Of a DNA stretch of 64,000 nucleotides, positions 36,982 to 41,280 are shown piece by piece (the stretch's first letter is position 1; every line of letters begins with the position of its first letter). The DNA is taken from contig NZ_FNQT01000002.1 in the NCBI RefSeq assembly GCF_900107665.1, forward strand, positions 312,286-376,285, written 5' to 3'. Made by a program: the position numbers and the translations under genes. The DNA is from Haloplanus vescus. Lineage in GTDB: Archaea > Halobacteriota > Halobacteria > Halobacteriales > Haloferacaceae. The notes under the pieces were generated by a model. That model saw only the letters and a program-made list of their open reading frames with translations. It did no database searches and was not told the origin of the DNA.

Positions 36982-39900
36982 CTATTCTACTCGTTCCAGA
37001 CCGATGGTGACCGTCACGTCCTCGACCGACCACTCCTCGGTCAGGTCGTCGGCCTCGGCGTCGAACGCCTCCGTTCGCGTCTCCTCCGCGATGAGGTCAC
37101 GGTGTTCGTCGACGAAGCCGGCGACTCGGTCGTCGTCGACGTCGATGCGCGTTCGGATGGGTGCGTCCACGTCGAGTTCGAGGCGCTTGCGCATCTCCTG
37201 AATCCGGCGCACCACGTCGCGGGCGTACCCCTCGGACTCGATGTCCTCCGTCAGCGACGTGTCGACGTAGACAGTGCCACCGATGCCGTCCTCGACGTCG
37301 AAGTCCGTCCCCGTGACGTTCTCGGGGGGTTCCGCTCGGAACGACAGCATCTCCTCGGTGAGTTCGTAGCGCTCGCCGTCGACGGAGACGGCGTAGCCGT
37401 CTTCAGTCTCTAAGTCGGCGCGACGGCTTCCCTCAACGGCGTTCATCACGCGTTGGGCGTCGCCGCCGAAGGCCGGGCCGATGGCCCCCATCTCTGGGTC
37501 GGCGTACTCGACCAGTTCGTCGAAGGTGTCGACCACCTCGATTCGCCGGGCGTTCACTCGCTCGGCGAGGAGGTCCGAGAGGGACTCGACCGCGTCGGCG
37601 ACGGCGTCGTCTTCGGTTTCGACGATGACGCGCGGGACGGGCCAGCGGAGTTTGCGGCCGCCCTGCTGGCGGGCGTTCGCGGCCGCCTCCTCGACTGCTC
37701 GGAGCACGGCCACGTCCGTCTCGAGGTCGGGGTCGTGCCACTCGTCGTCGACGGTGGGGTAGGCGAGTTCGTGGACCGTCGTCGCCTCCCCGTCGAGGGT
37801 CTGGTACATCTCCTCGGCGAGGTAGGGCATGACGGGAGCGAGCAGGCGAATCACCTCGTCGAGCACCGTCGCGAGCGTCGCGTAGGCGCCACGTTTCGAC
37901 GCGGAGTCGGCGTCCTCCCACATCCGCTCGCGGGTCGCCTTCACGTAGAACCGCGACACGTCCTCCGTGACGAACTCGAGGACGGTGTTGAGTGCGTCGT
38001 GGACGGCGTAGTCGTCCCACGCCTCGCTCGCCTCCTGTTTGACCGACTGGAGACGCGACAGCACCCACTCGTCGACGACGGTCAACTCGCCGTCGGACAG
38101 GTCGGCCCCGGCGGGGTCGTAGTCGTCGAGACGCATGTACTGCAGCGGGAAGCGGAAGACGTTCCAGAAGATGTTGAGCGTCGACTGAATCTCGCCGAGG
38201 CCGTCCCACTCGAAGGAGAGGTCGGCGCCGTGTTGGTCGTGGCTCATCAGGTAGGCTCGGAGCGGGTCGCGCCCGAAGCGGTCGATGGCTTCCTCGGGCG
38301 TGACGATGTTGCCGAGCGACTTGGACATCTTCCGGCCGTCGCTGTCGTTGGCGAAGCCGTGCATCACGACTTCGTCGTACGGAACCTCGCCGAGGGCGGC
38401 GGTGCCCATCCCAAGCTGCGACCAGAACCAGCCGCGGGTCTGGTCGTGCGCCTCGACGATGAGGTCCGCGGGCCAGAGGTCGTCGAACCGGGAGTCGTCG
38501 CTGGGGTAGTCGAGCGTTCCCCACGTCGCCACCGAGGAGTCGATCCACACGTCGAAGACGTCCGGAATCCGCTCGTAGGTGGTGCCGTCCTCCGTGATGG
38601 TGAGGGGGTCGACGCTCGGGCGGTGCAGGTCGACGTCGTCGGGGTCGACCTCTTGGTCCGCACGCTTTGCGAGTTCCTCGCGCGTGCCGACGACGAGGAT
38701 GTCCTCCGCGCTCGGGTCGGGGTCGTCCTCCGGCACCCAGACGGGAAGCGGGATGCCCCAGTAGCGCTGTCGGGAGACGTTCCAGTCCGGGGCGTCCTCG
38801 ACGAAGTTGCGGAACCGGTTGTCACGCGCCCACTGCGGGTGCCACTCGCTGTCGTCGATGTTGTCGAGTAGGTCCTGCTTGACGTCGGTGACGGTGATGA
38901 ACCACTGGTCGGTCGCGAGATAGATAATGTCGGTGTCACACCGCCAGCACTGCCCGTAGCGGTGGGAGTGGGTACCCGACACGAGCAGTCGGCCGTTCGC
39001 CTCCAAGTCGGCGATGATGTCGTCGTTGGCGTCGCGGACGAACTCGCCCTCGTACTTGCCGGCCTCGGCGGTGAACGTGCCGTCGCCGGCGACGGGCGAG
39101 AAGATGGGCAGGCCAAGTTCCTGACCGCGGGCGAAGTCCTCCTGCCCGTGTCCGGGCGCGGAGTGGACGAGGCCCGTGCGGTCGGCCTCGACGTACTCGG
39201 CGCTGTACACCTCGCCGACGCCCTCGCCGTCGGCGTGGTCCGGCACTTCCTCGGCGAGGGGGTGGTCGTACGCCCAGCCCACCAGTTCCTCGCCGGTGAG
39301 TTCCTCGCGCACCTCGTAGTCGTCGTAGCGACCCTTCTTCAGGACGTCCTCGACGCAGGGTTCGGCGACGTAGAGCACCTCGCTCTCGCCGTCGTTCGTC
39401 GCTTCGACGGCCTGATAGGTCATGTCGGCGTCGACGGCGACGAACTCGTTGGCGGGGATGGTCCACGGCGTCGTCGTCCAGATGACGAGCGACCCCTCGC
39501 GGTCCTGCAGGGGGAACTTCACGTAGATGGAGGGGGATTCGATTTCGTGGTACTCCACCTCGTTGTCGGCGATGGCCGTCTCACACCGCGGGCACTGGTT
39601 GATGGCGCGCTTGCCGCGTTCGACGAGGCCGTTCTCGTGGACCTGCTTGAACGCCCACCACGTCGCCTCCATGTACTCCGGTGAGATGGTGCGGTACGGG
39701 TTGTCCCAGTCCATCCACGCGCCGATGGACTGGAAGTCCTCGTCCATCTTCGCGCGGTTCTCCTCCGCGAAGGACTTGCACTCCTCGATGAAGGCCTCCA
39801 TCCCGTACTCCTCGATGTCCTTCTTAGAGTTGAAGCCGAGTTCCTCCTCGACTTTCACCTCGATGGGGAGGCCGTGCATGTCGTAGCCGGGCCGGTCGGT

Positions 39901-40143
39901 CACGTCGTAGCCCGACATCCGTTTATAGCGGATAATGGCGTCTTTGAGCGTCTTGTTCCACGCCGTGCCGAGGTGCATCTGGCCGCTCGTGTACGGCGGG
40001 CCGTCGACGAAGAAGAAGGGCGGGTCGTCTGCGTGGGCTTCCTTCGCCGCCTCGTAGGCGTCGTGTTCGTCCCAGTACGCGTTCACCGAGGATTCGACAT
40101 CCTCGGGGGTGTACTGGTCGCTGACGTCGTCGGCGTCGTCCAT
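36982..40143 (-). CDS. ileS: Isoleucine-tRNA ligase IleS
   Basis: 1053 residues, normal for archaeal IleRS. HIGH-like GPPYTSGQMHLGTAWNK near residue 50, editing domain (LVIWTTTPWTIPANEFV), VWIDSSVATWGTLDYPS, and the KMSKS loop GRKMSKSLGN, then an anticodon-binding C-terminal region. It charges tRNA-Ile and hydrolyses mischarged valine. Start: the ATG at 40143 is preceded by GATATACG (40164-40171) 21-28 bases upstream, consistent with a leaderless transcript, so any RNA regulation from the structured repeat further upstream is unlikely. Confidence 0.96.
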   Translation of the reverse strand: MDDADDVSDQYTPEDVESSVNAYWDEHDAYEAAKEAHADDPPFFFVDGPPYTSGQMHLGTAWNKTLKDAIIRYKRMSGYDVTDRPGYDMHGLPIEVKVEEELGFNSKKDIEEYGMEAFIEECKSFAEENRAKMDEDFQSIGAWMDWDNPYRTISPEYMEATWWAFKQVHENGLVERGKRAINQCPRCETAIADNEVEYHEIESPSIYVKFPLQDREGSLVIWTTTPWTIPANEFVAVDADMTYQAVEATNDGESEVLYVAEPCVEDVLKKGRYDDYEVREELTGEELVGWAYDHPLAEEVPDHADGEGVGEVYSAEYVEADRTGLVHSAPGHGQEDFARGQELGLPIFSPVAGDGTFTAEAGKYEGEFVRDANDDIIADLEANGRLLVSGTHSHRYGQCWRCDTDIIYLATDQWFITVTDVKQDLLDNIDDSEWHPQWARDNRFRNFVEDAPDWNVSRQRYWGIPLPVWVPEDDPDPSAEDILVVGTREELAKRADQEVDPDDVDLHRPSVDPLTITEDGTTYERIPDVFDVWIDSSVATWGTLDYPSDDSRFDDLWPADLIVEAHDQTRGWFWSQLGMGTAALGEVPYDEVVMHGFANDSDGRKMSKSLGNIVTPEEAIDRFGRDPLRAYLMSHDQHGADLSFEWDGLGEIQSTLNIFWNVFRFPLQYMRLDDYDPAGADLSDGELTVVDEWVLSRLQSVKQEASEAWDDYAVHDALNTVLEFVTEDVSRFYVKATRERMWEDADSASKRGAYATLATVLDEVIRLLAPVMPYLAEEMYQTLDGEATTVHELAYPTVDDEWHDPDLETDVAVLRAVEEAAANARQQGGRKLRWPVPRVIVETEDDAVADAVESLSDLLAERVNARRIEVVDTFDELVEYADPEMGAIGPAFGGDAQRVMNAVEGSRRADLETEDGYAVSVDGERYELTEEMLSFRAEPPENVTGTDFDVEDGIGGTVYVDTSLTEDIESEGYARDVVRRIQEMRKRLELDVDAPIRTRIDVDDDRVAGFVDEHRDLIAEETRTEAFDAEADDLTEEWSVEDVTVTIGLERVE

Positions 40144-40163
40144 ATCCGACCCAATTCACCCGC

Positions 40164-40171
40164 GTATATCA
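40164..40171 (-). promoter_or_regulatory. TATA box of ileS
   Basis: On the minus strand TGATATAC lies 21-28 bases before the ileS ATG. It is the only AT-rich box in the vicinity and places the structured repeat 40225-40474 upstream of the promoter, outside the transcript. Confidence 0.5.
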
Positions 40172-40224
40172 AAACGGTGGTCGCGAGATGTAGTGGTCAG
40201 ATATGTCGATGAGACTGTGACCAT

Positions 40225-40474
40225 CTCGAAAGCCCCCGGTGGTTCGGCTCCCGGGACTCGCTGTGCTCCTCACTGCGTTGCGGTGCTTGCATCGTCCGGG
40301 TTCGCCGAACCACCGGCCCCTTTCAGTCCCACCCGCATCGGCTGACCGGCTGGCCACCGCTGGGTGGAACTGAAAGGGGCGCCGCGCTGGAGGAAGGTGG
40401 GAGACGTAAGCACCGCAGGCCGACGGCCAAGGAGCGCAACGAGCCCCCGACTCCAGCGCGGCGGGGCTTTCGAG
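40225..40474. repeat. 250-bp cloverleaf-type inverted-repeat element (MITE-like)
   Basis: Terminal inverted repeats CTCGAAAGCCCC (40225-40236) and GGGGCTTTCGAG (40463-40474) are perfect. Inside, three more stems abut without spacers: CCGGTGGTTCGG (40236-40247) with CCGAACCACCGG (40305-40316); GCCCCTTTCAGT (40316-40327) with ACTGAAAGGGGC (40369-40380), extended after one mismatch by CCACCC/GGGTGG; GCCGCGCTGGAG (40381-40392) with CTCCAGCGCGGC (40451-40462). The first and third arm loops are themselves related in inverse orientation (both contain AAGCACCGCA). No ORF is credible in it. It fills most of the 378-base gap between ileS and the SDR gene. The remainder of the gap is the ileS promoter and 47 bases without visible features. 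Confidence 0.75.
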
Positions 40475-40521
40475 GTGTCTCTAATGAAATCGCGATAAGC
40501 TGAACAGTACCGCGCGACGGC

Positions 40522-41280
40522 TTACATCTCCTGCTGGGTCGGTCGAATCAGCATCTCGTTGATGCTGACGTGCTGGGGCTGGCTGACGGCGAAGCGAATC
40601 GAGCGCGCGATGTCCTCGCCCGTCAGCGGTTCGATGGAGTCGACCCACTCCTCGGTTTCGGCCTGAATGTCCTCGTCGGGGATGTGGTCCGCGAGCTCCG
40701 TGTCGACCAGTCCGGGCTCGATAATCGTCGTTCGAATCCCGTCGTCGGTCACTTCCTTTCGGAACGCCTCGGTGAAGCCGTTGACGCCGAACTTGGTCGC
40801 GTTGTACCCGCTCCCCGTCGCCATCGACATCCGGCCCGCGATGGAGGAGACGTTCACGACGTGGCCGCCGCCGTTCTCTTTCATCACCGGCAGCGCCGTC
40901 TTCGTCGCGCTCATCAGGCCGAGGAGGTTGACCTCGACCATCTGCCGCCAGTTGTCGGTGTCGGCGTCCGCGACGGCTTCGAGGAGCATCACGCCCGCGT
41001 TGTTGACGAGGATGTCGAGGCCGCCCAGTTCCGAGGCGGTCGTGTCTATCATCGATTCGACCTGCGATTCCTCGGTCACGTCTGTCGGCACCACGAGCGC
41101 CTCGCCGCCGGCCGATTCGATGTCGTCGGCGACCGCCTGCAGTTCGGATTCGCGTCGGGCCGCGAGGCCGACGCTCGCGCCAGCGTCGGCGAGTGCTTTG
41201 GCCGTCGCTTCACCGATACCGGAGGACGCGCCAGTCACGAGTGCAACCTGTCCGTCGAGTGGATTCGCGTCGAGAACCAT
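40522..41280 (-). CDS. Short-chain dehydrogenase/reductase
   Basis: 252 residues from ATG 41280. Classical SDR: VALVTGASSGIGEATAKAL, DVTEESQVESMI, ILVNNAGVMLLEA, catalytic VNVSSIAGRMSMATGSGYNATKFGVNGF (Ser then Tyr-x3-Lys), and IEPGLVDTELADHI. The end of the protein QHVSINEMLIRPTQQEM is typical of the YdfG/serine dehydrogenase-like SDRs that act on 3-hydroxy acids or aldehydes; substrate not assignable. Basic and neutral regions apart, nothing unusual. Monocistronic, following a structured repeat. Confidence 0.85.
   Translation of the reverse strand: MVLDANPLDGQVALVTGASSGIGEATAKALADAGASVGLAARRESELQAVADDIESAGGEALVVPTDVTEESQVESMIDTTASELGGLDILVNNAGVMLLEAVADADTDNWRQMVEVNLLGLMSATKTALPVMKENGGGHVVNVSSIAGRMSMATGSGYNATKFGVNGFTEAFRKEVTDDGIRTTIIEPGLVDTELADHIPDEDIQAETEEWVDSIEPLTGEDIARSIRFAVSQPQHVSINEMLIRPTQQEM

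Follow-up and report, generated by a model that had tools for sequence, protein, structure and literature searches.

MITEs known from haloarchaea include those of Haloquadratum (PMC3119063) and ISH2 and MITEHsal1/2 of Halobacterium (PMC10264941). The element described here resembles them in being short, in lacking a transposase, in having inverted ends of the kind found in an autonomous insertion sequence, in its target duplications (TSDs) and in its presumed mobilisation in trans. Compared by description, it differs from the MITEs of both reports in its compensatory stem changes, its strand-biased fold and its divergent pair of hairpin units, which are unreported for them. It is provisionally treated as a new MITE family, set apart from the haloarchaeal MITEs by their published descriptions. 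The hairpin unit of the element also resembles SMR-A of Haloquadratum in its size (about 110 bp), prominent inverted repeats and many copies. However, SMR-A produces no TSD and inserts in palindromes close to the ends of IS605-type elements and PATEs (PMC3119063), whereas the present element makes duplications of 8-9 bp and sits between ordinary genes. These duplications and the insertion between a short-chain dehydrogenase (SDR)-like gene and ileS rule out identity with SMR-A. PATEs, which are IS605-related and possess neither terminal inverted repeats (TIRs) nor a TSD (PMC3119063), are ruled out because the element has both. Insertion of the unit in an IS605-like palindrome (GAAAGCCCCTTTCAGTCCCACC), an idea prompted by the SMR-A paper, was likewise rejected, as a search of 60 genomes gave the unit's own stem junctions and no empty sites.

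In bacteria, MITEs with stem-loop transcripts (ERIC, BOX, RUP, Correia) are well known and can affect mRNA (PMC10969869). They share with this element the character of MITE-like intergenic repeats with stable stem-loops, but belong to another domain and have other sequences; the 5'-to-5' pairing and the covariation across haloarchaea distinguish the present family. The RAYT-associated REP/BIME repeats are hairpins of 20-40 bp with a conserved tetranucleotide, while the unit here is about 110 nt long. No Rfam family scored above its gathering cut-off in positions 39900-40900 of the window and at seven further loci, except for one tRNA. Phage records contained no match to the element. In the open-licence literature there was no occurrence of the conserved sequences as letters and no description of this family or its strand-specific covariation.

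The window, a 64,000-nucleotide stretch of the Haloplanus vescus genome, contains the element between ileS (minus strand, start 40143) and the SDR-like gene (minus strand, from 40522). It is probably a worn non-autonomous IS6-family element (MITE) carrying a structured RNA-like core, the folded strand of which would be functional. Its parts are listed in Table 1.

Table 1. Parts of the element and stems of its cloverleaf fold, in window coordinates
Feature	Position	Strand	Basis
Left target-duplication remnant TCGCGAGA	40181..40188		5/8 identical to right copy; compared with G003 empty site
Whole non-autonomous IS6-type element, ~323 bp	40189..40511		TIR match; sharply bounded homologues with TSDs
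Left IS6-type terminal inverted repeat TGTAGTGGTCAGATATGT	40189..40206	+	Sequence, homologue ends
Terminal stem pair CTCGAAAGCCCC / GGGGCTTTCGAG	40225-40236 / 40463-40474
Left hairpin unit GGGTGGGACTGAAAGGGGC...GGGCTTTC	40228..40334	- (conserved strand)	Covariance model match, alignment A1
Covarying variable stem of left unit CCGGTGGTTCGGC / GCCGAACCACCGG and loop	40236..40316 (left arm stem 40236-40248 / 40304-40316)	-	Folding, stem comparison
Central stem GCCCCTTTCAG / CTGAAAGGGGC, plus inner CCCACC/GGGTGG	~40317-40380
Spacer between the two 5' ends	40335..40361		Near-fixed junction of the divergent pairs
Right hairpin unit GGGTGGAACTGAAAGGGGC...GGGGCTTTC, opposite orientation	40362..40471	+	Covariance model match
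Covarying variable stem of right unit GCCGCGCTGGAG / CTCCAGCGCGGC and loop	40381..40462 (right arm stem 40381-40392 / 40451-40462)	+	Folding
Right IS6-type terminal inverted repeat, plus strand GATAAGCTGAACAGTACC	40494..40511	-	Sequence, TIR match
Right target-duplication remnant GCGCGACG	40512..40519		Sequence, flank comparison

The ends of the element are terminal repeats of the IS6 type (GGTASTGTTCAGATWAGC), from which the window copy deviates at 4 and 2 of 18 positions. Similarity among copies stops at TAnTGTTCAGATnAGC on the left and at its reverse complement on the right (alignment by eye). Both ends could be recognised in 24 elements; exact 8-bp direct repeats flank six of these, and in one more the flanking repeats match at 7 of 8 positions. 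When flanks of different elements were cross-paired as a chance control, none of 2000 pairs matched at 7 or more. Further exact repeats of 9-10 bp, with the end shifted by 1-2 bases, were read by eye in the flanks of L028, L030, L032, L109 and L111. The duplication of the window copy itself is worn (5/8). Shared TIRs, 8-bp TSDs in relatives, short length with no transposase, several copies and an empty site together place the element among IS6-family MITEs.

Probable partners, intact IS6-family insertion sequences with matching ends, are present in the same genus. The clearest of those from Haloplanus (L263) ends in GGTGCTGTTCAGATTAGC / CCTTATCTGAACACTACC, is flanked on both sides by the TSD CGTTCACG and encodes a 211-aa transposase scoring 207.8 bits (IS6 model NCBIfam NF033587, cut-off 125). 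Haloarchaeal IS6 insertion sequences (NF033587) and the element have in common terminal repeats of about 18 bp, a T/A asymmetry between the ends and TSDs of 8 bp; unlike them, the element has no transposase gene, and its interior of hairpin units is unrelated to the IS6 gene. Because the ends are shared, the IS6 transposase would be expected to move the element in trans. IS6 transposases were found in all 12 Haloplanus genomes searched. In the window genome one IS6 copy was found (L252, G000:C1:1416869 onward); it covers model positions 2-177 of 202, its C-terminal end is altered relative to intact proteins, and it may be broken. It is followed by an ORF of PIN-domain-like toxin type (PIN reading by eye). 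The window copy looks inactive, given its 5/8 duplication and the altered C-terminal end of the sole IS6 copy found in its genome.

The window genome holds three full copies, including the window copy, and one partial; the two other full copies are 86% identical to it and the partial one 80%. More copies occur in sister Haloplanus species, and a match is also present on plasmid NZ_CP098517 of Haloplanus sp. GDY1. In one sister Haloplanus (G003, locus L274) the ileS promoter region joins the same dehydrogenase gene directly, the site reading GGTCGCGCGCCGGCCG, and the window copy is therefore an insertion. The ileS regions of all other Haloplanus examined also lack the element upstream of ileS. 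This bears on whether the sequence could be a fixed, immobile host regulatory element such as an ileS terminator, attenuator or 5' structure. It lies immediately 5' of the ileS promoter region, as the initial annotation had seen, and follows the SDR gene, a position that would suit such a role, but the empty gap in G003, the other empty ileS loci and the copies at unrelated places with target duplications and mixed orientation to genes make this reading extremely improbable. Immobility is refuted; a regulatory side effect on ileS is possible.

The initial annotation had described four perfect stems joined without linkers at 40225-40474 and had suggested a non-autonomous transposable element or, alternatively, a DNA structure that a nuclease or recombinase recognises. 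The four abutting stems are present at these coordinates, and the transposable element is borne out by the multiple copies, the empty site in a sister species, the TSDs of relatives and the ends in common with IS6-family insertion sequences. The ends given were too short, since the conserved element reaches about 36 bp further on each side. Folded alone as DNA, the 250-mer has an energy of -88.6 kcal/mol (z -8.25); as RNA it reaches -162.6 kcal/mol (z -8.94), and the opposite strand as RNA -167.6 (z -8.74). None of 200 dinucleotide shuffles matched the native energy in any of the three foldings, so the fold does exceed random expectation on both strands. The two arm loops, said to be related in inverse orientation, are 83% complementary over 18 nt and 86% over 14 nt. 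The stems are real, but the cloverleaf does not represent a design of its own: one hairpin unit, present in two inverted copies that share their ends, inevitably produces four linker-free stems. The element is not single-copy, its relatives did not prove non-palindromic and it did not fall into a known ncRNA family, the findings that the annotation had named as counting against it.

The core of the element thus consists of two divergently oriented copies of a hairpin unit of about 110 nt. On the conserved strand this unit reads GGGTGGGACTGAAAGGGGC, a variable 11-bp stem, a second stem, GACGnAAGCACC, a variable hairpin, GAGGAGCGCAGCGAG and GGGGCTTTC. The left unit matches the covariance model at G000:C2:352505-352630:- with an E-value of 2.9e-26, this copy having belonged to the training set of the model, and the right unit at G000:C2:352636-352764:+ (E 7.8e-21). 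The near-invariance of the unit ends is partly built in by the search patterns, but units fetched with BLAST keep them at roughly 80-100%, and the G-tracts are retained at roughly 80-95% in units fetched with no G-tract pattern.

Outside Haloplanus, matches mostly cover one arm of the cloverleaf, about 110 nt. An exact 19-base match was sought in 84,980 prokaryote genomes; at least 120 stretches contained it, and among the matches listed 80 of 80 were haloarchaeal. When 294 genomes of the phylum were searched with the covariance model, the unit was detected in 43, all of them among the 53 haloarchaeal genomes of the window's own order. No unit was found in the approximately 241 other genomes of the phylum sampled, 231 of which were taken as non-haloarchaeal from their sort order. 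At most 11 candidates per genome were scored, and copy counts per genome are lower bounds. Recognisable IS6 ends flank both sides of only 16/174 units, and because most units outside Haloplanus are found without them, the unit is not tied to any single transposon.

Where units are paired, they stand head to head (5' to 5'). There are 36 distinct pairs of this kind in several genera, with a junction of 52-63 nt, and the window cloverleaf is one of them; among the unit pairs, direct arrangements were absent and no tail-to-tail one was convincing. Most units are intergenic (68 of the 76 tested, in sequence predicted to be 77% coding by a crude gene finder). The gene that follows a unit runs in the same direction in 44/67 cases, a weak bias, and orientation to genes is mixed.

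Many units contain an additional module of about 50-56 nt, made of two perfect triloop hairpins with the tip often GCGAAGC or GCTTCGC and the linker TGAGC. The same few joints within the unit serve repeatedly as insertion points for the module, whose stems vary between copies. Carriers include L095, L102, L103, L097, L104, L034, L031-L033 and L111 in Haloplanus and L116, L130, L140 and L177 in other genera. By appearance the module is a second repeat that targets hairpins.

As a rule, sequence conservation is what gives transposable elements away. In the present family, which extends across haloarchaea and is absent from Rfam, one strand keeps its fold although the stem sequences change between copies. 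Among 173 distinct units there are 127 different stem sequences, and in 86 units every one of the first 12 pairs is Watson-Crick. RNAalifold applied to 91 non-redundant units (alignment A1) gave 24 pairs, of which 18 have changes on both sides; five invariant pairs (GAAAG/CTTTC) were required by the search patterns and are uninformative. The covariation score is 0.507, compared with 0.141 +/- 0.009 in shuffled alignments and at most 0.126 when the partner was slid. The covariation by which functional structured RNA is judged was found in the proposed stems.

Mismatches in the outer stem are asymmetric. Neutral change in double-stranded DNA yields G-T and A-C equally, while G-T pairs are tolerated in RNA and in DNA hairpins. 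On the conserved strand 58 G-T mismatches were counted vs 14 A-C; when loci are counted instead, G-T prevails in 45 and A-C in 8 (p=2.4e-7, an optimistic value, related loci being partly dependent). Since G-T exceeds A-C and the units have no consistent orientation to neighbouring genes, the fold of one single strand appears to be under selection, as RNA or ssDNA alike.

Could the covariation be a by-product? Template switching or palindrome correction, by copying changes between stem arms as DNA is replicated, would account for the long perfect stems and for the unrelated stem sequences of different copies, leaving plain selfish DNA with a functionless fold. Such correction works on duplex DNA whichever way it is oriented and, orientations of the units being mixed, predicts no one-strand excess of G-T. 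In addition, GACGNAAGCAC, GAGCGCAGCGAG and CTGAAAGGGG, which lie outside the stems, are conserved as well. A by-product is on this evidence improbable.

Selection on one strand also agrees with a ssDNA structure: the unit would fold while DNA is replicated or passed on by conjugation-like transfer, a DNA-processing enzyme, for instance a Y1/HUH transposase or a recombinase, would recognise it, and the IS6 ends would be a later carrier. For the second suggestion of the initial annotation, such selection suits recognition of ssDNA as well as it suits RNA. Examples of such structures are REP, the ends of IS200/IS605 and attC sites. Both RNA and ssDNA accept G-T, so the asymmetry cannot tell one from the other. 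The unit occurs both with and without IS6 ends, and its structure is kept while the sequence drifts, as is common at DNA sites recognised by structure and established for attC and REP. Against this, the duplications and inverted ends of window-type elements are not made by such enzymes, and the conserved purine-rich internal loops would be unusual for a plain ssDNA hairpin. We consider a ssDNA structure unlikely.

In the reading preferred here the unit would work as a single strand in folded form, for which RNA from read-through transcription is a more likely candidate than ssDNA; the preference for RNA is made on purely general grounds, by analogy with the transcripts of bacterial MITEs. With 5'-to-5' pairing, a transcript entering from either side would hold a single unit in conserved orientation, the last of the two, and the element would thereby present the same fold in either insertion orientation. 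By analogy with ERIC, BOX and Correia, the fold would serve to mark the transcript, to process it or to bind a host protein. No oligo-T tract or conserved promoter was seen at the ends, which makes a terminator or a dedicated RNA gene unlikely, and the terminator role was set aside for want of the oligo-T tract. A kink-turn in the GA-rich internal loop was also considered, but as judged by eye the pairing was not supportive.

In the K+-rich haloarchaeal cytoplasm the conserved G-tracts (GGGNGGG-ACTGAAA-GGGG-hairpin-GGGG) might assemble into a G-quadruplex that the hairpin closes. A broader and more tentative proposal is that the unit may be a haloarchaea-wide, mobile, structured RNA-like module, selected for its fold, travelling on IS6-type ends and at least one other architecture, with G-tracts that possibly form a G-quadruplex. 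If the fold is a functional RNA, mobile elements would have seeded many copies of one structured RNA into intergenic regions. The covariance model can now be used for annotating such elements.

In some genera the unit is part of a larger arrangement, without IS6 ends, that reads GCGCGAGGGAGG, a hairpin, CGAGGCTGGGGAGG, a GCGGTGCGG-rich spacer, the unit and GGTGTTGCTGTCC. It was seen at L059-L084 (G025), L143 and L114 (Haloparvum sedimenti); in some cases its 3' end is repeated in tandem behind it. Short tandem repeats (for example GGTGACGCTTTC.. and GTGTCCGGCAC..) stand directly upstream of the unit at L178 (Halorussus amylolyticus), L176, L184 and L158, and differ from genome to genome.
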